DNA from: Peptococcaceae bacterium
Lineage (GTDB): Bacteria; Bacillota; Desulfitobacteriia; Desulfitobacteriales; Syntrophobotulaceae
DNA length: 40,210 nt
Assembly: GCA_012517475.1 (NCBI GenBank)
Contig: JAAYUV010000007.1
Location: forward strand, 1-40,210
Direction of reading: 5' to 3'
A program made the translations under genes and the position numbers. The number at the start of each line of letters is the position of its first letter. Position 1 is the stretch's first letter. The notes under the pieces were generated by a model. The model ran no database searches. It was given only the letters and a program-made list of their open reading frames with translations, and was not told the origin of the DNA. Shown here in pieces: positions 5,467 through 39,894 of this stretch.

Positions 5467-6168
5467 TCAACCTTCGATAACACTTCGGGCAGCACTCGGA
5501 GCCGTCTTGTCCGTATCTCCGGACTCGACTTCTTCCACCCATAAGGCGTGATGATGCCAGGCCCAATCCCTGGATACTCTGCCTCCAATCATTCCTTTAA
5601 TACTTTCCTTCGATCCCGGATGGAGTAAAGCAAGGAAGGCATGAGCCATAATCACGCTGCCCAAGCCCAACGCCGCAAAGGAATGGATAATGCGGGCCCA
5701 AGCGATAACTTCAGCGGAGGCGTTGCCAACCAGCATGATCCAACCGGTAATAATGATCACGGTGCAGCCTACGATTTGCAGCAGAGAATTAATTTTCTCA
5801 CCGCCGTTAAATCTGCCTTGTTTCGGGGTTTCCACTTTAAAGCCAAAAAAAGTTTTGGGAAAAGCCTTAACGAATTCCACATCATTCTTACTCCAATGAG
5901 TAACGTCATAAAGCCAGCGTTTTGTATTTTTCCAGGAAAAGAACACAAGAATGATCACCGGCACGAAAGTAAAGATGATGCCGAATAGGTGATGAATATT
6001 TGAAAAAAGCCTTAACCCCCCGGGCCCGATTAATGCCCCGAAGCCGCGAAAAACAAGAGCGCAGCCCGTCAGCAGCAGGATTACGAAAGATACGGCGTGA
6101 ACCCCGTGACCCAGCCGGGAAGGGAGACTGAAACGTACGATCGTATCACTGTTTTTTTCTTTACTCAT
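5467..6168 (-). CDS. Membrane cytochrome b subunit of the molybdoenzyme (PhsC/FdnI-like)
   Basis: A protein of about 233 residues with four predicted membrane helices and histidines placed for b-haem ligation (LGHGVHAVSF, NIHHLFG, IIHSFAAL, MAHAFLALLHPG). It should anchor the reductase at the membrane and pass electrons from menaquinol to the ferredoxin subunit. The ATG at 6168 is chosen because it overlaps the ferredoxin stop by 8 bases and has an AGGAGG-type site about 8 bases upstream; an extension to 6213 would run through the ferredoxin coding sequence. A haem-b anchor points to a Phs- or formate dehydrogenase-like complex rather than the NrfD-type anchor of classical polysulfide reductase. 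A nearly identical copy, altered at its C terminus, is at 22300-23019. Confidence 0.85.
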   Translation of the reverse strand: MSKEKNSDTIVRFSLPSRLGHGVHAVSFVILLLTGCALVFRGFGALIGPGGLRLFSNIHHLFGIIFTFVPVIILVFFSWKNTKRWLYDVTHWSKNDVEFVKAFPKTFFGFKVETPKQGRFNGGEKINSLLQIVGCTVIIITGWIMLVGNASAEVIAWARIIHSFAALGLGSVIMAHAFLALLHPGSKESIKGMIGGRVSRDWAWHHHALWVEEVESGDTDKTAPSAARSVIEG

Positions 6169-6856
6169 GATTTTTGTCTCCTCCTTTCGCATTGTTGAGG
6201 ACAACTCCCCCAACGACTGCCGCAGCCGCCAGTCCCAATATGCCTTTGCTTACAGGCTGAGCGACATCTTTCAGAACGTTTACATGGATCGGGGTAACAC
6301 AGGCCGGCGGCAAAACGGAAGAATCCATTTTGACCGGCGGTACATAATACATGCTGGTCCCCTGGATACGGACAGTCTGATGACTCGCCAGATACTCCGA
6401 TATTTCACTGCCTGGATCGTCGATATCGCCGAAGATCCGTACTTTGCACATGCAGGTGGAAACACAGGCAGGTATTCCTCCCTTAGCTACATAATCAGCG
6501 CAAAAACTGCATTTTTGCGGCAGGCCATCCTCATTGAGAACTCTGGCATTGTAGGGGCAGGCGGCCATACAGTACTTGCACTTGATACACTTATCCGAAT
6601 CGATTAATACGACCCCGTCTTCTCTCTTGTAAGTAGCCTTCGTCGGGCAAACTTTCTCACAGGGAGGTTGGTCACAGTGCTGGCATTGAACCGGGACAAT
6701 GACCCTGCTGAGCTTTGGGTACTCGCCTTCAACATGTTCTTCCAGTCTGTTGAAATACACGGCAGGAGAGAGTGACCACTGCATTTGACAGGCAATCCGG
6801 CAAGCGTTGCAGCCGATGCATTTATTGGGATCGATACACATTGCATATTTGGTCAT
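6161..6856 (-). CDS. Four-cluster ferredoxin subunit of the molybdoenzyme (PhsB/NrfC-like)
   Basis: A 231-residue electron-transfer subunit with four cysteine groups: CIGCNACRIAC (13-23), CQHCDQPPCEKVCP (about 60-73), CIKCKYCMAACP (about 92-103) and a distal CSFCADY..CVSTC (about 117-136), as in DmsB, PhsB and NrfC, so up to four [4Fe-4S] clusters. Near the C terminus a hydrophobic stretch (GILGLAAAAVVGGVV) could be a membrane anchor, which is less usual for this subunit. It lies between the TorD gene and the cytochrome b gene and overlaps the latter by 8 bases. It would wire the membrane cytochrome to the periplasmic-side catalytic subunit. Start ATG is followed by the TKYAMCIDPNKC segment typical of the family. 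Confidence 0.9.
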   Translation of the reverse strand: MTKYAMCIDPNKCIGCNACRIACQMQWSLSPAVYFNRLEEHVEGEYPKLSRVIVPVQCQHCDQPPCEKVCPTKATYKREDGVVLIDSDKCIKCKYCMAACPYNARVLNEDGLPQKCSFCADYVAKGGIPACVSTCMCKVRIFGDIDDPGSEISEYLASHQTVRIQGTSMYYVPPVKMDSSVLPPACVTPIHVNVLKDVAQPVSKGILGLAAAAVVGGVVLNNAKGGDKNHE

Positions 6857-6874
6857 GATTTATTACCCCCAGCG

Positions 6875-7447
6875 TTATACTGACAATGGATACCTTGAGT
6901 TGAATTGCCATATTTCCAGAATTTTAGCGGCACTGGCATACACAGGCCGTTTACTTTTGATAATTAAGGGCAGAATTTTACGGAGGAATGGTCTTACATG
7001 TTTTTCTTCAAATTCCTGCAGCTTTATCGTTTCTCCATTCAGCGCCAACAGTGCCAGGAACTCCAATTCCACAGCCAGATGGTCGGGCATTTCCCGTCTT
7101 TCATCACTGATTTCGAAACCACAGGCGTGATAGAAGGCTTGAATCTCTTCAGCTTCTTTTCCCAATACCCGGCCATGATCATTCAAGTGAACCGAGGCGT
7201 AAGGGATCGCCTCGATGTCCCAAGCTTCAAACAAGGGGATGTAATGCTCCCATAAGCTATTCAAGCGATTCTCACCTAACGGGTGCTCCCGACAAAACTC
7301 TTCGACTTCCTTGACATAGGCGCCGGATTCAGGGATTTCTTCCCGCCATAAATCCGCAAACTCTTCGAGATGATCCGAGATTTCGGGGTGAGGCCGATGA
7401 AATATCCCGGCAAAAGATAAATACAATTCTGCTGTCTTGATATTCAT
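6875..7447 (-). CDS. TorD/DmsD-family molybdoenzyme maturation chaperone
   Basis: A 190-residue all-helical protein. Its N-terminal YLSFAGIFHRPHPE, central LWEHYIPLFEAWDIEAIPYASVHL and PDHLAVELEFLALLAL segments match the TorD family, where the E-x-D/H-L-x-x-E-L-E-F motif is the hallmark. Such chaperones bind the Tat signal peptide and help insert the molybdenum cofactor before export. Its ATG overlaps the catalytic subunit's TGA (ATGA), showing translational coupling, and the ferredoxin gene follows 18 bases later. Its partner is almost surely the adjacent Tat-signal molybdoenzyme. Confidence 0.88.
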   Translation of the reverse strand: MNIKTAELYLSFAGIFHRPHPEISDHLEEFADLWREEIPESGAYVKEVEEFCREHPLGENRLNSLWEHYIPLFEAWDIEAIPYASVHLNDHGRVLGKEAEEIQAFYHACGFEISDERREMPDHLAVELEFLALLALNGETIKLQEFEEKHVRPFLRKILPLIIKSKRPVYASAAKILEIWQFNSRYPLSV

Positions 7448-9690
7448 GCCTTTTTAACGGTTACAAAAGTCATGGAAGTGCATACGTTGCCTACTTCACC
7501 AATCTCGTTCGGGATCAGTTTATTATCATTAATTCCTTTGCCGTAGGCTCTTTTCAGTTCGGGAGAAATACGGCCGAATCCATGATAACAAAATACCGTA
7601 TCAGGTCGAATACCTTGGGTGACTTTGGCTGTCCCTTTATGTTCATATTTACCGGCGGAAATGATGATGGCGTCGCCGTCACGTATTCCAAGCTTATCGG
7701 CGCTTATTTTATGGATCCAAAGCGGATTTTGGGACATTACTTCGTTCAGTACCGGAACATTTATCGTACCGGCATTGGTATGGACCGCTACTTTCCCCTG
7801 AACAAACCGGAATTTTCCTTCCTCCGGTTGAGGGTATTGTTTATACTGGGGAATTCCTTGTTTGGTTGCTTCCTGGACTTCCTCGGAATAAAACTCGATT
7901 TTCTTACTCGGCTTACTCACGACATTATCCAGAGAAGCTGTCGGATCATTTTCACGAATATAAAACGGCTTCATTCCCACCGGTATCCAAACGCCTTTTT
8001 CTTTCATCTGGTTTAAGGTTAAACCTGCCGGCGTTAACTGCTGGTTGATAAAATCCACAATGTCCGCATACGGGAAATACTGACCCAGGCCCATTTTTTC
8101 GCCTAGTTCTTTGTAAATCCGCCATGCCGGTTTGGTGTCCGGATATACTAAGGGGACTGCCGGTTGGCGCAGTACATATTTTGGCATTAACCCGGACATA
8201 TCATAGACCTGTTCATACCTTTCCAAATAGGTGCACTCAGGAAGGATCACATCGGCAAACATCGCTGTATCCGTCATGTAAAGATCACAAACAACCAGTA
8301 AGTCCAGTTTCTTTAAAGCCTCGATTACTCTGTCACTTTCCGGCAAGCTGATAACAGGATTAAAACGATGCACCATCCAGGCTTTGATCTGATAGGGCTG
8401 TCCTGTCAGGATGCTCTCTGTAATTTGTCCAACAGCACCATCGCCTTCAGGGATCAACTGACTTGGTATTCCTTTTATTCCCGTTCCATCAATCCTGCTT
8501 GTCACCGGTTTTGGAAAAGCCGGTTGACTGACCGCACCCAGGGCTTTGGCTAAGCCTGTCATTTCAGGGAAGCGATTCACAACAGAGGCATTTTTGACTC
8601 GATAATAGCCCCCGGGGGTTTCGAAATTGCCCACCATCATGTTCACGATCATAATCGCCCTGCGCAATTGATAATCATTGGGGGCAAGCCCTGTCCGCCA
8701 CCCAAAGTCCAAGATGGCTTTCGGGCGGGATTCGGCAAACTCCCGGGCAATTCTGAGGATGGTTTCTTGCGGAATTCCAGTTTCCTTTTCCGCCCATTCC
8801 GGCGTCTTATCTTTAACAGCCACTTTCCATTGATCAAAACCTGAGGTATAACGTTCTACAAAATCTTTATCATATTTTTCCTCGGCAATCATCACATTGG
8901 CCATAGCCATGACAAAAGCCAGATCGGTAGCACCTTTAATCGGAACCCATTCCCCCATGGATGCTGTTACACTAAACCGGGGATCAAGCACAACAAGCTT
9001 AGCCCCATTGCCAACCGCTTTCATAATCCCCCTGGTCTGTGCTACATGAATGCCTTCCAGCCAGTTGCGTCCAATGGAAACAATATATTTTGCATTTCCG
9101 TAGTCCGCGGCAATACCTTCAACGCCAAACATACTGTCCAAAGCGACCGAACGAGTCAGCGGACAGGTGGCCTCATGGGAAAACATATTCGGGCTGCCGA
9201 TCCCTTGGGCAATGGTGCGGAAAAACCAGTCATGAGGTCCTTTACGGCTGGCAAAAGCGACTGCTTCTCCACCATCGTTCTGCTGGATAACTTTTAACTT
9301 CTCAGCAATATATGTATAGGCTTCGTCCCAGCTGACCTCTTTATATTTGCCGGTTCCCCGTTCGCCTGTTCTCAGCATGGGTTTTTTCAACCGTTGCGGG
9401 TCATACAACAGAGAGGGTCCTGCATTCCCTCTGGCACACAGAACGCCTCCGAAATCTGCATCATGGGGATTTCCTTCAATTTTTGAGACTTTTCCGTTAA
9501 CGACCTTTACGGCAATAGGACATTGATTGCGGCACATTTCACAAGCTGAGAAAACAGTCGTTTCCTGATTATTTTCGGCTGCTATAGAAGATGGGGGTGC
9601 AGCTTTCGTCAGAGTGCCGAAACCACTAATAGCAATGGCTGTACCCCCTGCTCCAAGAAGTGCACTTTTAAGGAATTGTCTCCTATTCAC
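7444..9690 (-). CDS. Tat-exported molybdopterin oxidoreductase, thiosulfate/polysulfide reductase-like (PhsA/PsrA)
   Basis: A 748-residue catalytic subunit of the DMSO reductase superfamily. It has a twin-arginine signal (RRQFLK at 3-8, then a hydrophobic segment), a [4Fe-4S] motif C50-x2-C53-x3-C57-x27-C85, and a cysteine at about 176 (SHEATCPLTR) at the position that ligates molybdenum in Phs, Psr and Nap-type enzymes. The C-terminal cofactor-binding beta-barrel (about 620-745) is complete. The likely reaction is reduction of thiosulfate, polysulfide or a related sulfur oxyanion, inferred from the flanking YeeE, TusA and rhodanese genes; arsenate or tetrathionate cannot be excluded from sequence alone. 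Translation starts at GTG with GGAGGG upstream. It heads a four-gene operon with torD, the ferredoxin and the cytochrome b, diverging from a LysR regulator. Confidence 0.88.
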   Translation of the reverse strand: MNRRQFLKSALLGAGGTAIAISGFGTLTKAAPPSSIAAENNQETTVFSACEMCRNQCPIAVKVVNGKVSKIEGNPHDADFGGVLCARGNAGPSLLYDPQRLKKPMLRTGERGTGKYKEVSWDEAYTYIAEKLKVIQQNDGGEAVAFASRKGPHDWFFRTIAQGIGSPNMFSHEATCPLTRSVALDSMFGVEGIAADYGNAKYIVSIGRNWLEGIHVAQTRGIMKAVGNGAKLVVLDPRFSVTASMGEWVPIKGATDLAFVMAMANVMIAEEKYDKDFVERYTSGFDQWKVAVKDKTPEWAEKETGIPQETILRIAREFAESRPKAILDFGWRTGLAPNDYQLRRAIMIVNMMVGNFETPGGYYRVKNASVVNRFPEMTGLAKALGAVSQPAFPKPVTSRIDGTGIKGIPSQLIPEGDGAVGQITESILTGQPYQIKAWMVHRFNPVISLPESDRVIEALKKLDLLVVCDLYMTDTAMFADVILPECTYLERYEQVYDMSGLMPKYVLRQPAVPLVYPDTKPAWRIYKELGEKMGLGQYFPYADIVDFINQQLTPAGLTLNQMKEKGVWIPVGMKPFYIRENDPTASLDNVVSKPSKKIEFYSEEVQEATKQGIPQYKQYPQPEEGKFRFVQGKVAVHTNAGTINVPVLNEVMSQNPLWIHKISADKLGIRDGDAIIISAGKYEHKGTAKVTQGIRPDTVFCYHGFGRISPELKRAYGKGINDNKLIPNEIGEVGNVCTSMTFVTVKKA

Positions 9691-22299: not shown

Positions 22300-23019
22300 T
22301 TATCTTAAAATTGCCCGAAACAGCTTGAAATCAGTTTTCAATGAAAATAAACAGTTCCTCTTCCGGAAATTTAAAGAGATCGGCAAATATTTGAAATAAA
22401 CTTGCGTAAGCATCCAATCCCTGGATACTCTGCCTCCCAGCATTCCTTTAATACTTTCCTTTGATCCCGGATGCAGTAAAGCAAGGAAAGCGTGGGCTAA
22501 TATCACTCCCCCTAAGGACAAAGCAGTAAAGGAATGGATAATCCGCGCCCAGCCGACAACTGTCTGTGATGGGCTTCCAATAAGCATGATCCACCCGGTA
22601 ATAATCAATACGGTACAGCCTATGATTTGCAGGAGAGAGTTAATTTTCTCCCCCCCGTTAAATCTGCCCTGTTCCGGAGTCTCCACTTTAAAGCCAAAAA
22701 AAGTTTTAGGAAAAGCCTTAACGAATTCCACATCATGATTGTTCCAATGCGTAATGTCATAAATCCAGCGTTTCGTATTTTTCCAGGAAAAGAACACGAG
22801 AATGATCACTGGCACGAAAGTAAAGATTACGCCGAAAAGATGATGAATATTAGAAAAAAGCCTTAACCCTCCGGGCCCGATTAATGCCCCGAAGCCACGA
22901 AAGACAAGGGCACAGCCCGTTAGCAGCAGGAGAACGAAAGATACGGCGTGAACCCCGTGACCCAGCCGGGAAGGAAGACTGAAACGTACGATCGTATCAC
23001 TGTTTTTTTCTTTACTCAT
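22300..23019 (-). CDS. Second cytochrome b subunit, C terminus replaced (decaying copy)
   Basis: From the ATG at 23019 this matches the cytochrome b at 5467-6168 almost residue for residue as far as GGRVSRDW, with all four helices and haem histidines kept. After that tryptophan the native tail (AWHHHALW..) is replaced by about 37 unrelated residues. Those bases, read one frame over, encode the start of a TorD-like chaperone, so the tail is a deletion artefact. The ribosome site and its overlap with the preceding ferredoxin frame are conserved. The protein might still fold, but its partners (ferredoxin and catalytic subunit) are only fragments, so it is probably non-functional or could at best serve the intact complex. 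Confidence 0.75.
   Translation of the reverse strand: MSKEKNSDTIVRFSLPSRLGHGVHAVSFVLLLLTGCALVFRGFGALIGPGGLRLFSNIHHLFGVIFTFVPVIILVFFSWKNTKRWIYDITHWNNHDVEFVKAFPKTFFGFKVETPEQGRFNGGEKINSLLQIIGCTVLIITGWIMLIGSPSQTVVGWARIIHSFTALSLGGVILAHAFLALLHPGSKESIKGMLGGRVSRDWMLTQVYFKYLPISLNFRKRNCLFSLKTDFKLFRAILR
22331..22414 (-). pseudogene. TorD-family chaperone fragment
   Basis: In the frame next to that of cytochrome b copy 2, the bases directly after its conserved end read AYASLFQIFADLFKF then PEEELFIFIEN and a stop. This looks like the first helix pair of a TorD chaperone (compare YLSFAGIFHRPHPE in the intact gene, but a clearly different sequence). About 26 codons remain of roughly 190. Confidence 0.5.
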
Positions 23020-23255
23020 TATTTTTGTCTCCTCCTTTCGCAGCGTTGAGGACAACTCCCCCGACTACTGCCGCCGCCGCCAGTCCCAATATGCCTTTGC
23101 TTACAGGCTGAACGACATCTTTCAGAACGTTTACATGGATCGGACTAATACAGTCCGGTGGCAAAACGGAAGAATCCATTTTGACCGGCAGGACATAATA
23201 CATGCTGATTCCCTGGATACGGACAGTCTTATGACTTGCCAGATATTTAATTATA
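23012..23255 (-). pseudogene. C-terminal remnant of a second ferredoxin subunit
   Basis: The last 80 or so residues, from YLASHKTVRIQG to the end, match the C terminus of the ferredoxin subunit at 6161-6856 with few changes, including the hydrophobic anchor. All four cysteine clusters are gone: the frame runs upstream into sequence belonging to a molybdopterin enzyme. It overlaps the start of cytochrome b copy 2 by 8 bases exactly as in the intact operon. No electron transfer function is possible. Confidence 0.8.
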
Positions 23256-23745
23256 CATCCCTCCGCACATTTTATCCCAGAGGTTGGTTTTCGCTGTAAA
23301 GCAGGTTGCATAATGCGTTAGATAATTGTCTGATCCAATGACATCGAGGAATTTTTGGGCATACTCTTCTTTTCCCCCGTAAACAGGCCCAGAGAACTTT
23401 ATCCCCGCCATGCTTGTCGACAATTTCTCGCATTTTGGTTCCTATCTCCTGGAAAGCCTCTTTCCAGGTGATTGGTTTAAAGTCGTTGCCACCGATTCGT
23501 TTCATAGGCTGGGGAACCCTTCCCGGGTTATATACATTTATAGCAACACCATGTCCCCGGGCGCATATTTTTCCTAAGGACTTCATATGTATTTCGTTGC
23601 CTTCTATTTTCCACAACCTGCCGTTTTTGACATAGGCCCACACCCCGCAATAGCTGGAACAGCCGTTACACATGAATGGGATTCTTTTCACTTCTCCAGT
23701 CTTGGCCTCCTCGGCAAAGACTTTAAAGTTCATCGTAGGTTCCAT
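23247..23745 (-). pseudogene. N-terminal remnant of a second molybdopterin oxidoreductase
   Basis: The frame starts with an iron-sulfur motif CNGCSSYCG..ICARGHG and continues through ITWKEAFQEIGTKM, the N-terminal part of a DMSO reductase-family enzyme. Near 23395 the reading frame shifts: the next frame continues correctly as SGPVYGGKEEYAQKFLDVIG, then HYATCFTAKTNLWDKMCGG, which includes the molybdenum-ligand region, and then stops at the ferredoxin junction. No Tat signal is seen upstream; instead the sequence joins a permease gene. Only about 165 of some 750 codons survive. It differs from the intact enzyme at 7444-9690 and so came from a paralogous operon. Confidence 0.8.
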
Positions 23746-30900: not shown

Positions 30901-32222
30901 TTATCATTCGTCATCCTGCTGCTTTTCTAGGAAAGGGAATCATCATCGTAGACACTCCGGGAACAAACTCTCTTCAGACCCTCAATACCGAAGAAACATT
31001 GGCTTTTCTGCCGAAAGTTGATTCCGCGATTTTTCTTTTATCCGCCGACCAGCCTATAAACCAGGAAGAGCTGAGTCTTCTGGAGATGCTCAAGACTACA
31101 ACCGCCAAAATATTTGTTGTTTTAAACAAAATTGACCTCCTTTCTCCGGAGGATTTAGCTGAGTCGGTTGAATATTGTACAAACATCCTACGAAATGTAA
31201 TGGCCGATGCTCAAATCCTACCCGTATCTTCACGCTGGTATTTGGAAGGAAGAAAAAAAGAATCCGGTATTGTTTCCCTGAAAGAAACCCTGGAATCCTT
31301 TTTTAAAGACGCTCAGCATGAAATTGAATTAAAGAGCAGCATCATCCGTTGTCAAAAGATATTGACCCTCAAGCGGGAACAGGTTGCCCTAGAAAGAAAA
31401 GCGGTCGAATTATCCTCGCTGGAACTGGCTGAAAGTATCAAACAATTCCAGACTTTCAAGGATGAAATTAAAGAAACGAAGCAAGATTTCAGGCATATTA
31501 TCAACGGACAGACGAAATTAGTCCAGGAGCAAATGACAAAACAAATTGAAGACTTTCGCCAAGAAAAAAGCTTTAAACTGACAAGAGAAATAAAACAACG
31601 ATTCAATAATCACGGTACGCTCAAGGAAGTTCAGTCCTATTCTTTTGCCCGTATTTATGAAGAGCTTGAAAGCCTTAGACCTATCGTTTCGGAGGAATAT
31701 CATGAACGCACCAGGCTGCTCTTGAAAAGGCTCAGTCAGGAAGCGGAAGAACTTTCTTCGCATATCACCGCCGTTGGCGGAAAAGTACTCAAGACTAAAG
31801 TTACGGTAGAATTGCCTGAACCGGTCTTTACCAATAACAATACGCTGGAGTATTTCATCGAAAAAGCTGTCGGCTTGGTTCCTTTTAATTTGGAAGATGC
31901 AGTATCAATTCTTCCCTGGTCCTTAAGCAAAAACATTATCGTAAACCGGATCAGTGAAAAAGCCATTCAACTAATGGACAAAAATTGCGGGAGGATCAGG
32001 GCCGATATCGCGGAACGGCTGGCTGTAGCTACCCGCAATTATATGGAACTATGGGAAAGTGAGCTGGATAGAATAGTCCGGTTGATCGAGTCGGCGATAG
32101 AAAAGGGAATTCAAATGCAAGAAGATACTCTCAAAAGGGATGAATGGCAAACGGATTTAAATAATAGAGAAGAAAAATTAAATTCCATCGCTGACAAAAT
32201 ACAATTCCTTCTTGAAACTTAA
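30900..32222 (+). pseudogene. Dynamin-like GTPase lacking its P-loop (5'-truncated)
   Basis: The frame begins abruptly with VIIRHPAAFLGKG, then IVDTPGTNSL (G3 motif) and NKIDLL (G4 motif), followed by about 300 residues of helical stalk with coiled-coil character, including a hydrophobic segment near the middle typical of bacterial dynamin-like membrane-remodelling proteins. The GKSS/T P-loop (G1) and switch I (G2) are missing, so nucleotide binding is lost or crippled. No ATG exists upstream in frame; the first possible start is TTG at 30999, after the G3 motif. Length of about 440 residues compares with 550-600 in intact homologues. The MFS gene follows 27 bases later. Confidence 0.75.
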
Positions 32223-33487: not shown

Positions 33488-35008
33488 TCAATTCATTGCG
33501 AAATTTTCCGTTTCAAATACCCTGTTATACAAATCCCCGCCGAAACTCGTTTGTAACGGTTCCCCTTCTTTTAATTTGAAAGTCCTTGCTCCGTCCGGCT
33601 CCCTTTCGGCACGCAGAAAGAGAGCGTTTTCCTTTCCCTGCAGGTATAAACCGTGGGCGAACTCATACAAATGGGTCACGGAGTAGACCTTGATTGCCCT
33701 TTCCACTAAAGCGCAGGTTATCTGCCTGGCGATTTCCGCTCCTTCCCTTTCATTGGTCGCGGCAAATGATTCGTTAAACAGCAACAGGCTGTTTGCTGTT
33801 ATCTTGTCAGCGATAGCATTCATTCTGCTGAGTTCTTCATCAAGTTTCCCGCTGTTCATGGCAGTATCTTCCTCCCGTTTATAATGCGTAAAAATGCCCT
33901 CGCAAACATTGGCGGAAAACATTTCAGCTGGCACAAACATCCCGCATTGCATCATCAATTGAGCGAGACCAATGCTTCGTAAAAAAGTAGACTTGCCGCC
34001 CTGGTTCGCTCCGGTGATGATGACAAGGTCAATGTTTTCGGCATCCAGAGTATTTCCCACCGTTTTTCGGTCCAGTGTCAACGCCAGGCACACATCATAC
34101 AATCCCTGAAAAACATGGCAGCGCTGGTCGGCGCTTACGGGAACGGGGAAACAAACCGGTTCTCCCTTCTGCGCAAGTTGTTCCTGCAAATTCAGACAGC
34201 CGATGTAAAAAGCCAGTTCGGTTTGCAGCATGGTAAAAAAACTAAGAATATGGTCGGCGGACTGGGCGAGTGCATTGGCAACCAGGTTGAGCCCCCTGTC
34301 TTTTAAATCCGACAAGGCCCTGAGCCCGCTCTCATCCCGGTCGTATATAAAATACGTGTAGCCTGCCAATTTGTTGGCAAAGATCCGCTCCAGCCACTCT
34401 ACAAAACTTTGTCTTTTCCCTTGCCCTTTACGCAGGATATAATTGGTTCCTTTATTGCCTTGACCCAATTCGGCGCTGATCAAAATTCCGTCACGAAATT
34501 CCATTTCCTTAAGATGGTCCTCAACGGCCGTAAAATATTCCTCGGTCAGTTCTTGCTTGAGCATGGAAAAAAACGTTTGAAAGCCCTCAGCCTCAAATTC
34601 GTCCGCATGTTCATCGGCAATACGTCTTAACTTTTTTAGCATATTCATGAACATCCCTAAAACGTCTAACGACCTATGCACAATGGCAGTGCTGTATCTG
34701 CTGAATATGCTTAAATAGTTCTTTTTCTCGTTTTTTATCGCTTCGCCTACCAAGGCATAGATATCCCTGATAACCTCGGGATTTTTCAGACAGTCCTTCA
34801 GAATATCCTGGCGGTAAAAGATTTCACTAAGATCAGTTAAGCTCGACAGAACCGCTTTTGAAACGACTTCCAATATTAACTTGTCTCCCAACCCCATGGC
34901 TTGAAACAGAGTGTTTAATTCCAGGTCTTGGGTCAGAGCTTGTTCGTTCCAGGGCAATTGCCGTCCCAGGTCAAAGTCCCGGTCTTTATACATGAGAAAA
35001 GCCTTCAT
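33488..35008 (-). CDS. MutS-related ATPase, second of a pair
   Basis: A 506-residue protein containing the helical core (about 30-300) and ABC-type ATPase domain of MutS without the mismatch-binding domain. The P-loop GANQGGKST is at about 330, then MFVPAEMFSAN, the signature-like SGKLDEELSRM (about 385), Walker B LLLFNESFAATNEREG (about 410) and SVTHLYEFA (about 445). Such MutS-like pairs occur in anaerobes and have been listed among fluoride-riboswitch-controlled genes; their job is not established. ATGA overlap with the upstream mutS-like gene shows co-translation. It appears complete and is the end of the leftward fluoride-type array. Confidence 0.88.
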   Translation of the reverse strand: MKAFLMYKDRDFDLGRQLPWNEQALTQDLELNTLFQAMGLGDKLILEVVSKAVLSSLTDLSEIFYRQDILKDCLKNPEVIRDIYALVGEAIKNEKKNYLSIFSRYSTAIVHRSLDVLGMFMNMLKKLRRIADEHADEFEAEGFQTFFSMLKQELTEEYFTAVEDHLKEMEFRDGILISAELGQGNKGTNYILRKGQGKRQSFVEWLERIFANKLAGYTYFIYDRDESGLRALSDLKDRGLNLVANALAQSADHILSFFTMLQTELAFYIGCLNLQEQLAQKGEPVCFPVPVSADQRCHVFQGLYDVCLALTLDRKTVGNTLDAENIDLVIITGANQGGKSTFLRSIGLAQLMMQCGMFVPAEMFSANVCEGIFTHYKREEDTAMNSGKLDEELSRMNAIADKITANSLLLFNESFAATNEREGAEIARQITCALVERAIKVYSVTHLYEFAHGLYLQGKENALFLRAEREPDGARTFKLKEGEPLQTSFGGDLYNRVFETENFAMN

Positions 35009-36183
35009 GATTTTATCCGCTCCTTTAAACAGTTGTAAGTTAGCCCGTACTTTTCGGCAACTGACAAGGCGTAGGAAAGTCCGTCAGCCTGCCTTCTGAT
35101 AATTTTATAAGTCCTTAAGGCCGGATTTTCTAGAACGACCGTGCTCACCAGGCTTACCGTTTTCTCGTTGAGAGAAGCCAATTCATCCAGGAACGTCACA
35201 CAAACACACAGCAAATCCAATTCGGTTATTTTTCCGATGATCTGTTTGCTCAGAAAAACGGCATCCTGTAACGTTGTGGAAGTAAAGATCTCATTCATGA
35301 TGACCAGGCTGTTGGGCGTAGCGTTGTTTAATATGGCGCGAATCCTCAGCAAATCATCTTGAAGTTTGCCGTTCAGGTTTTGAATTTTTTCTTCCCGTTC
35401 AAAATGAGTAAAGAGCCTATCTGCCAGAAAAAGCTTGGCTTCACGGCCAGGCACGGGACAGCCGATAGCGGACAGATAATGCAGCTGCCCGAAGGTGCGG
35501 GCGAAAGTTGTTTTCCCACCTTGGTTGGGACCGGATACTACAAAAATCCGCTCCTGGCCTTTCAGGTAAAAATCGTTGCAGACAACAGAGGAGTCTTCTG
35601 TAAGGAGTTTATAGGCCAGGGCCATATCGAATCCATCATGACTGTAAATTTCCTTGCAGGCAGCGGAAACCTGGGGATAACAGAACTTTAATCCAGCCTT
35701 TCGGAATAAGGATATGTGTTCCAGATAGGCAAGATAAAATTGTATTTCCCGGTCAAAAAGACCGATGGTCTCATTGAGGTAATTACTGTTGATTGTGCAA
35801 TAATGATCGAGAGATACGAAAATATCTGGATACAGTTTGGCCACCAAATCCAATATTCCGGCTTCAACATGGTTCATTTCCACCCCGGTTGAGAATTTAA
35901 TTTTATAATCTTTTACCGCACCCTGCCGGAATTTCGCAAAGGTTTCCTCCACTTCCGCGCTGTAGTCTTTTTCCGATTCATATTTACGCACATGAATGCC
36001 AATGGCGTTTTTACGCAGGGTCCTTCGGCCTTCGATTAACAAGCAATATTGCACAGTGGACAGAGCCGCCTTCAGCTTCTCCGTTTCCGTCAGAAGCGAA
36101 ATAAAGCGCTCCGATTTCACGTAATCTCTAAGATATTCCCGGAAAGCCAAAAGGCCACGGGCCTTTAAATCCACGGCTGCCAA
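35005..36183 (-). CDS. MutS-related ATPase, first of a pair, 5'-truncated
   Basis: A 392-residue frame with P-loop GPNQGGKTTFA (about 223), NLNGKLQDDLLRI (about 275), Walker B LVIMNEIFTSTT (about 299) and a C-terminal LSYALSVAEKYGL. The first residues, DLAAVDLKARGLLAFREYL, correspond to an internal part of full-length family members (about 550-580 residues), so roughly 160 N-terminal residues are missing. The frame opens right after a TAA, and the only start is a TTG at 36183. Just upstream a ribosome-site/start pair (GGAG, GTGTCTGAGAG) runs out of frame into the gene, as expected for an out-of-frame deletion. A fluoride-type riboswitch precedes it. Confidence 0.8.
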   Translation of the reverse strand: MAAVDLKARGLLAFREYLRDYVKSERFISLLTETEKLKAALSTVQYCLLIEGRRTLRKNAIGIHVRKYESEKDYSAEVEETFAKFRQGAVKDYKIKFSTGVEMNHVEAGILDLVAKLYPDIFVSLDHYCTINSNYLNETIGLFDREIQFYLAYLEHISLFRKAGLKFCYPQVSAACKEIYSHDGFDMALAYKLLTEDSSVVCNDFYLKGQERIFVVSGPNQGGKTTFARTFGQLHYLSAIGCPVPGREAKLFLADRLFTHFEREEKIQNLNGKLQDDLLRIRAILNNATPNSLVIMNEIFTSTTLQDAVFLSKQIIGKITELDLLCVCVTFLDELASLNEKTVSLVSTVVLENPALRTYKIIRRQADGLSYALSVAEKYGLTYNCLKERIKS

Positions 36184-36264: not shown

Positions 36265-36348
36265 AAAAAGACCGATGATCTCTACTTTTCCCGTAGAAGC
36301 CATCAGCCGTTTCAGCGGTTCGGATTATCCCAGGGAGCTTCATCCCTT
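36265..36348 (-). ncRNA. Fluoride (crcB-motif) riboswitch 2 with terminator
   Basis: On the minus strand the RNA begins with stem GGGA(TGAAGC)TCCC (36333-36346), then AACCGCTGAAACGGCTGATGG (given here as P3 and the conserved CTGATGG) and CTTCTAC. The P1 loop GAAGC can pair with GCTTC (36297-36301), the pseudoknot that defines this class. The same GATGGCTTCTAC arm then forms a terminator with GTAGAGATCATC, ending in CTTTTT at 36265-36270, so ligand-bound and terminated folds exclude one another. Odd: the P1-P3 linker is about 12 bases with a small GGGATAATCC repeat, longer than the usual few bases. It controls the mutS pair. Confidence 0.78.
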
Positions 36349-36423
36349 TTTACTAACCTTTTATTAACCTTTTACCAATTACCAAGAATATAGCACTTTC
36401 TGTTTTCGCCCACAAGAAAATTA

Positions 36424-36932: not shown

Positions 36933-37647
<715 letters not shown>

Positions 37648-38218: not shown

Positions 38219-38644
38219 TTACTCTTTTACAACCATAACCGGTACCTTGGAATAGCTCACTACTTTTTGAGCGACACTACCGATGACAAGCTTTTTAAAA
38301 CCACCCACACCTCTCGTTCCTATCACAATGAGATCAAATCCGTTTTCCTGGGCGTAATCAATAATTTTCTCCACCGGATGACCATGGATAATTAATGTTT
38401 GGAGTTTAATGCCTTCTTTTTGGGCTGATTCGGCAATCTCTTTGTGCATGGGCACAATCCGTTTTTCCGCCTCGTCCATGACTTCGCTTACCTCATCCAT
38501 ACTTGAACTAAAATCCGGCAAGCGTACAACCGTTAAAACGGTAACCGAGGAATTGAGTTTAGCGCTTAAACTTTTCGCGTGCTCCAACGCCTTTTTACTG
38601 CTGGGGGAACCGTCGAAACCCACAAGAATCTTATTCATTTCCAT
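38219..38644 (-). CDS. UspA-family universal stress protein
   Basis: A complete 141-residue UspA protein: KILVGFDGSPSSKKALEHA at the N terminus, the ATP-binding motif GTRGVGGFKKLVIGS (about 110-124) and the terminal strand SKVPVMVVKE. It is very similar to residues 1-137 of the chimeric copy at 37099-37647, so the two came from one duplication. ATG at 38644 has AAGGAGGG about nine bases upstream and overlaps the antiporter end by 14 bases; a longer start at 38683 lies inside that gene. Confidence 0.92.
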   Translation of the reverse strand: MEMNKILVGFDGSPSSKKALEHAKSLSAKLNSSVTVLTVVRLPDFSSSMDEVSEVMDEAEKRIVPMHKEIAESAQKEGIKLQTLIIHGHPVEKIIDYAQENGFDLIVIGTRGVGGFKKLVIGSVAQKVVSYSKVPVMVVKE

Positions 38645-39794
38645 CGTTAGACCCTCCTTGTAAAACTTGTTCTTGGAAAACATTTTTCGGGAAGAAGAAT
38701 TTCTGAGCGATCAGGGTCGGTATAACAGCACTGAGAATGACGACTGTTACAATGACACTGTATTGTGAATTGCTGATATACTTATTTGTTAGCCCATATA
38801 AAGCTGAAATCGTTCCGAAGGTCAGTCCTGTGCTCATGAGAAGGGTGGTATAGATCCCATCCTTTCCTTTGTATTGAAAGAACCTGGTTGCAGGAAGCAC
38901 CCCGATAAATTTTGCGGCAACTTTGACCAGTAACAAAATTAAAATTAAGGAAAGCGTTGTGGCAATGGCCTTAACAGAGACAAGGGAACCCGCTTTAATA
39001 AAATAGAACGGCGTAAACGCTACAAAGGCTATCGCCCGCATCTTATAAAGCGTTTCTTTATATTGCAGGAAAAAACCTGCCATAGCCAAGCCGATAATGT
39101 AAGCGGGAAGCACCGCCTCGCTGCCGGAATATTCCGCAAGGAACCCTAAAAACAGAAGGATCAGCAGGACAAATTTAATTTCCGGTTCACTGACTTTCCC
39201 GCTGTATCTTGCAAAGATCCATTTTGCCAGTGGAATTCCAGCAAAACACACCACAATGACTGCTCCGACAAAAATAAGCAATTTGTAAGAAAATCCTGTA
39301 AAGAGGAATCCCAAAGCCAAGACCGTACCTAAATCCGTAACGAAACAGGCTGCCAGGATCGACTGTCCAAAAGAAGTAGAGCTTAATTTGCTTTCAACCA
39401 TTACTGCATAAACAACAGCGACTGAAGTGGTAGATAAAGCAATTCCGGCAATTTTTGCGGCATTTACATCCCAACCAAGAAAATAAAAGGCTACAAGCAT
39501 ACCTAACGCAAAAGGTAGCAGGAAGGAAAGCAAGCCAATAACCACACTTTGTTTGAGGTTCTTTTTCAGGCTGGCGGGATCAATCTCCGCGCCCGCTAAA
39601 AAGGTCAGTATGACGGAACCCAGGCTGGCTAAAAAATTGACCCAGTCTGTTATCTGGAGATGAATAATGTTACCTGCCACCACGCCGACCAGGATTTCAA
39701 TTAATGCAAGAGAAATCCCTAAACGAATTGAAATAAGACTGGCTATAAAGGCTAAAAGTATCCAGATTGTTGCAATCAAGAAAGTGTTGTCCAT
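38631..39794 (-). CDS. CPA2-family cation/proton antiporter
   Basis: A 387-residue protein with 12-13 predicted helices of the Kef/NapA type, ending in a short soluble tail; there is no TrkA/RCK domain, unlike full KefB/C. The transport core motif is AACFVTDLGTVLALG (about 150), followed by EIKFVLLILLFLGFLAEYSG and GLAMAGFFLQYKETL. It probably exchanges Na+ or K+ for H+. Sodium/proton antiporters are among the genes reported under fluoride riboswitches, and a typical one lies directly upstream of this gene (39815-39890). AGGAGGA is 12 bases from the ATG, a slightly long spacing. Confidence 0.9.
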   Translation of the reverse strand: MDNTFLIATIWILLAFIASLISIRLGISLALIEILVGVVAGNIIHLQITDWVNFLASLGSVILTFLAGAEIDPASLKKNLKQSVVIGLLSFLLPFALGMLVAFYFLGWDVNAAKIAGIALSTTSVAVVYAVMVESKLSSTSFGQSILAACFVTDLGTVLALGFLFTGFSYKLLIFVGAVIVVCFAGIPLAKWIFARYSGKVSEPEIKFVLLILLFLGFLAEYSGSEAVLPAYIIGLAMAGFFLQYKETLYKMRAIAFVAFTPFYFIKAGSLVSVKAIATTLSLILILLLVKVAAKFIGVLPATRFFQYKGKDGIYTTLLMSTGLTFGTISALYGLTNKYISNSQYSVIVTVVILSAVIPTLIAQKFFFPKNVFQEQVLQGGSNDGNE

Positions 39795-39814: not shown

Positions 39815-39890
39815 TGAATAAAAATAAAAACTCCTACCTGAAAGGTAGGAGCCATTAGCCTGATGCATTTGCGAGCCCCATCGCAAGGAT
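39815..39890 (-). ncRNA. Fluoride (crcB-motif) riboswitch 1 with terminator
   Basis: Minus-strand RNA: P1 stem TTGCGA(TGGGGC)TCGCAA (39869-39886), a short AAATGC linker and P3, then GCTAATGGCTCCTACC. This follows the fluoride riboswitch consensus GGCGATGGxxTTCGCC..AAACGC..GCTAATGACTCCTAC closely. P1-loop GGGGC pairs with GCTCC (pseudoknot, one G-U). The CTCCTACC arm alternatively forms the hairpin at 39831-39851, which is followed by TTTTTATTTTTATT on the minus strand: an intrinsic terminator. So fluoride binding would free the terminator arm and switch on the antiporter gene. Confidence 0.92.
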
Positions 39891-39894
39891 TTTT

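Follow-up and report, generated by a model that had tools for sequence, protein, structure and literature searches.

The mechanism of the fluoride riboswitch class (crcB motif, RF01734) has been treated in two papers (PMC8752731, PMC11077080), the first of which discusses the A-U linchpin and the roles of the conserved letters (PMC8752731), while the exchange of strands between pseudoknot and terminator is found in the second (PMC11077080). Natural variants with terminators that extend into P3 have been described as well (PMC13273304). That crcB RNAs occur before mutS, and that their terminators overlap them, was stated in 2010 (PMC2864571), so the association of the motif with mutS has been known since then and is not new; this was the only paper found in a literature search on the link between the riboswitch and mutS. 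A second point of comparison is the fluoride resistance operon of Enterobacter cloacae FRM (PMC5533749), which is riboswitch-controlled and includes a universal stress protein and an enolase, like the locus considered here. It differs in that its six genes include no MutS-like pair and in that the enolase of the present locus is only a fragment.

I will refer to the whole stretch of DNA under analysis, 40,210 nucleotides from a contig of a Peptococcaceae bacterium, as the window, and to the two MutS-like proteins encoded behind the riboswitch as subunits A and B. The riboswitch, its terminator and the two genes all lie on the minus strand. The Rfam covariance model for RF01734 finds the fluoride riboswitch aptamer at 36356..36287 (-), with a score of 43.4 bits against a gathering score of 34 and an E-value of 6.7e-9 (1.5e-10 when set against the whole genome), and this is the sole match above threshold in the window. 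The original prediction, made from the letters of the DNA, had called a second fluoride riboswitch before MutS-like genes and had named the lack of a match to the model as something that would speak against it; the match exists, and it is followed by two genes whose products carry the MutS_V domain. The span given at that time, 36265..36348, comprises the aptamer from P1 onwards plus the terminator with its U-run. The other switch of the window, riboswitch 1 (39839..39894, minus strand), lies upstream of a CPA2 antiporter gene at 39794..38631 and is a weaker match, its 28.8 bits falling short of the gathering score of 34 (E-value 4e-4); its pseudoknot reads GGGGC/GCUCC. The genome also contains two crcB genes, each just downstream of an RF01734 match. 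Matches in the window to the sR7 and Histone3 models were below their own thresholds and were judged to be due to chance. No consensus promoter was found adjoining the switch, a TG-n-TATATT stretch at about 36395 being a candidate and nothing firmer.

The architecture of RF01734 can be recognized in the element by parsing and by covariation: P1, P3, and a long-range pseudoknot between the P1 loop and a 3' segment. The P1 stem-loop (36332..36347) pairs AGGG (36347..36344) with CCCU (36335..36332), as placed by the Rfam alignment, the parse and the covariation, and P3 (36306..36316) was parsed as GCUG-AAA-CGGC. At GAUG, at UGAUG and at the linchpin U, the window carries the letters that an alignment with 50 relatives shows to be invariant or conserved in 90% or more. 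The exact contacts with the ligand are known from the published crystal structure. It might be asked whether the match arose by chance, or whether a plain terminator without any aptamer would suffice, the region holding a terminator-like hairpin when folded. A structural scan, in the stricter form of the scanner, found such elements in the loci and none at all in shuffled sequence, which excludes a chance origin of the element; this result, the E-value of 6.7e-9, the covariation and the conserved position (both considered below) effectively refute that reading, and I allow it practically no probability. The element at 36356..36287 (-) is very probably a genuine fluoride riboswitch of the crcB motif, a transcriptional ON switch with an optional linker hairpin. 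Judging by its sequence, the aptamer would bind fluoride.

The pseudoknot joins GAAGC(U) in the P1 loop (36341..36336; Rfam alignment, parse and covariation) to the downstream arm (G)GCUUC (36296..36301; parse and covariation). GAAGC (36341..36337) pairs with GCUUC (36300..36296), with a U.G wobble on top as the sixth pair. It had been noted that these arms differ from those of riboswitch 1 yet still pair, as expected of covariation, and the comparison with relatives bears this out. Over 50 riboswitch matches, 97.8% of the cells of P1 and the pseudoknot are paired (98.4% for the 3' arm of the pseudoknot in the 50 relatives), with changes on both sides at eight of the nine pairs; in a control where one strand was slid by one to three bases, pairing was 49-63%. 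Since the second pair of the pseudoknot is G-C in 44 of the sequences and A-U in six, GAAGC represents a natural covariant of the class, and the GAAGC/GCUUC pseudoknot is within the range of fluoride riboswitches. An exact-pattern search of 398 genomes gave seven matches of the GAAGC type, four of them before subunit A, so that it stands mostly but not exclusively before the MutS-like pair. One such switch, with its terminator, has no MutS gene behind it (L060, 1440-1560, minus strand), and the next gene resembles a PolX/PHP DNA polymerase. Another (L057, 1498-2250, plus strand) is found ahead of an unrecognized protein with a CxxC motif (CPICKIIKDEEKAYCW).

The linker between P1 and P3 (36317..36331) had been described as about 12 bases with a small repeat, unlike the few bases usual in the class. 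It is indeed long and does contain a repeat, an inverted one, but its length is 15 nt (GGGAUAAUCCGAACC) and it is not unusual. The parse gives a mini-hairpin of just 3 bp, GGA (36330..36328)-UAA-UCC (36324..36322). To place this within the class, P3 and the linkers were parsed by a script (the structural scanner), because a MAFFT alignment of all matches placed the 5' strand of P3 wrongly; of 86 matches, six were judged by eye to be artefacts and dropped, leaving 80 switches, a sample biased toward mutS loci. The linkers have a median length of 7 nt, with 16 of the 80 reaching 13 nt or more. A hairpin is present in 12 of those 16, as compared to a mean of 2.5 and a maximum of 8 in 500 shuffles. 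The hairpins lie immediately 3' of P1, and the usual A-rich junction before P3 is mostly retained. Their sequences vary, as in UUCGGA-AAAA-UCCGAA (L052), UCGAG-GAU-CUCGA (L010) and a 7-bp hairpin (L056), and those in L052, L058 and L022 are longer than the one in the window. Long linkers occur also outside the mutS group, and 7 of the 66 switches whose pseudoknot is of another type have one. In a class-wide survey, my own count, 15 of 59 Rfam matches span at least 70 nt, a figure that concerns the span only and leaves the extra bases unplaced. With long linkers, most of them holding an optional hairpin, in about a fifth of the sampled switches, a long linker is ordinary for the class: it is a small hairpin inserted before the conserved junction, occurring in other members as well, even though the consensus structure of RF01734 lacks it.

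These comparisons bear on the suggestion that the element is a structural variant, the long linker and the different pseudoknot altering its affinity for fluoride. Linker hairpin and GAAGC pseudoknot do co-occur in several mutS-linked switches, and in published constructs the sequence of the pseudoknot alters the range of switching (PMC11077080). Neither feature is rare, however; the U.G wobble at the top and the 50% G+C of the pseudoknot resemble the Bacillus cereus switch described in the same paper, where a comparison of one pair of variants gave similar values for half-maximal fluoride (PMC11077080). I consider a changed affinity improbable, and it is not needed to account for the element.

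Folding of the region predicts a terminator at 36265..36308, a hairpin of 15 bp followed by five U, whose 5' arm consists of the 3' strand of P3 together with the pseudoknot arm. Aptamer and terminator are thus mutually exclusive, which is why the element is read as an ON switch. When fluoride is lacking, the P3 3' strand and the pseudoknot arm, which make up the aptamer's 3' half, would pair with the downstream bases to form the 15-bp terminator, and transcription would halt ahead of the MutS-like genes. With fluoride, the Mg-bound ion would lock the pseudoknot, the terminator would be blocked, and the genes for A and B would be transcribed; fluoride should, on this reading of the sequence, turn transcription on. 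Of 21 switches that precede these MutS-like genes, 18 are predicted to have a terminator that consumes the pseudoknot arm; the control is loose, 6 of 21 passing after a single shuffle of the downstream sequence. The window switch has in common with the described class the aptamer, the pseudoknot, the conserved letters, the overlapping terminator and the mutS target, and its terminator extends into P3 like those of some natural variants (PMC13273304).

The arrangement is conserved. Of the 39 homologous loci with upstream sequence, 23 have a fluoride riboswitch no more than 450 nt from subunit A, and these 23 include (by the titles of the records) Bacillota, Thermotogae, Spirochaetota, Bacteroidetes and Proteobacteria. 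A further set of 249 genomes of the phylum, drawn separately, contains 10 with subunit A, the window genome among them, and a switch lies within 420 nt in 7 of the 10 subunit A loci outside the window. The lack of such conservation upstream of mutS pairs was the other observation that had been named as speaking against the original prediction, and the counts go the opposite way. Bacteria of many phyla appear to have put this pair of MutS-like ATPases under fluoride control.

What the pair does is another matter. Subunit A (35005..36183, identified by Pfam MutS_V and full-length relatives) is truncated at its 5' end, with 392 of about 511 aa, and subunit B (33488..35008, identified by Pfam MutS_V, alignment, and matches of model and fold), full length at 506 aa, overlaps the end of A. 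The two genes overlap or abut in each of the 30 loci for which both reading frames could be placed. Pfam recognizes MutS_V in both proteins, but both fall short of the equivalog cut-offs: 74.6 and 69.1 bits against 641.7 for MutS1, 70.7 and 72.7 against 400 for MutS2, and 70.8 and 42.5 against 300 for the reactivase KamC. The structure predicted for subunit B has a mean pLDDT of 80 and aligns with residues 261-775 of E. coli MutS (Z 27, rmsd 4.6 over 372 residues), so that the model of B covers the MutS core and ATPase part and has neither the mismatch-binding domain nor the connector. The model of subunit A is weak in the ATPase half (pLDDT 71), for which reason statements on domains are based on subunit B and sequence profiles. 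The Walker B motif is Asn-Glu in all aligned A and B sequences, in contrast to the Asp-Glu of MutS (and of KamC, in the two sequences where it is readable). By the alignment range, the Asn corresponds to Asp693 of E. coli MutS, the residue altered in the D693N mutant of entry 3k0s. The pair shares with MutS and MutS2 the fold of core and ATPase, Walker A and sequence similarity in domain V. It differs from them in the absence from B of the mismatch-binding and connector part, in the Asn of Walker B, in that no Smr domain was found in it, and in that A and B are always two different adjacent genes. The proteins are neither canonical MutS nor MutS2, and they are conserved as a unit.

The guess voiced in 2010 for the crcB motif (PMC2864571) was that such proteins repair DNA damaged in fluoride stress. 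The MutS_V domains of both proteins favor it, but the alignment of the B model with residues 261-775 only, the failure of either protein to reach the MutS1 or MutS2 cut-off, the Walker B Asn in both subunits and the presence in the genome of a MutS1 of its own all weigh against it, and I regard it as possible but unlikely. An ATPase with a role outside repair is no less plausible. Because the mismatch-recognition part is absent and the Walker B Asp is replaced by Asn in both subunits, I suggest, tentatively and as a minority chance, a heterodimeric MutS-core ATPase specific to fluoride that serves not mismatch repair but perhaps the remodeling or rescue of some other target in fluoride stress, possibly together with fluoride-switched dynamin-like GTPases. 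The comparison here is with KamC, which is annotated as reactivating an enzyme. Genes for dynamin-like GTPases are found directly behind fluoride riboswitches in several loci (L064, L070, L074, L010, L008 and L047), and in L047 the genes for A, B and dynamin stand in a row. A literature search found no paper joining the fluoride riboswitch and dynamin, nor one joining it to mismatch repair.

The state of the locus itself calls for caution. Subunit A of the window starts about 120 residues later than its relatives (about 511 aa), and a well-spaced start is missing; what the switch regulates may thus be a defective product. The missing N-terminal part was not found anywhere in the assembly, although full-length copies of subunit A exist elsewhere. 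A gene at 37099-37647 (-) joins a universal stress protein (Pfam Usp 4-137) in frame to a short piece of enolase (Enolase_C 136-174); in L015, L019 and L048, enolase-like matches that are complete occur close to the MutS pair. A dynamin-like GTPase gene at 30912-32222 (+) is missing its 5' part. At 22300-23745 (-) the cytochrome b, FeS and molybdopterin-type genes of 5467-9690 recur as shorter second copies, which is a further sign of partial duplication or deletion, or of trouble in the assembly.

One may thus read the switch as the intact remnant before a dying operon, whose RNA may respond to fluoride but whose product is useless, gene A having lost its N-terminal 120 residues. The truncation of A, whose missing part the assembly lacks altogether, agrees with such a reading, as do the Usp-enolase fusion, the truncated dynamin-like gene, and the example of L060, where such a switch and terminator stand without a MutS gene. 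On the other side, subunit B is full length and by alignment similar to its relatives, the aptamer retains all of its conserved letters, and an assembly error is possible in a genome of 115 contigs. I judge the decay of the operon to be a substantial possibility, somewhat short of an even chance, and one that concerns present function, not the identity of the RNA. The window switch may now serve a broken operon; the alternatives are decay of the fluoride island and errors in the assembly. The element, to return to the preferred account of it as a fluoride riboswitch, is intact, but it is doubtful that the organism gains anything from it at present.

As a riboswitch, the element adds one well-supported new member to a known class, with a target gene already reported, and it documents an optional linker hairpin that is absent from the Rfam consensus structure. 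The MutS-like pair is more interesting than the switch. With A and B conserved together, distinct from canonical MutS and from MutS2, and unusual in their Walker B motif, the guess of 2010 that fluoride is linked to DNA repair can now be put to the test.
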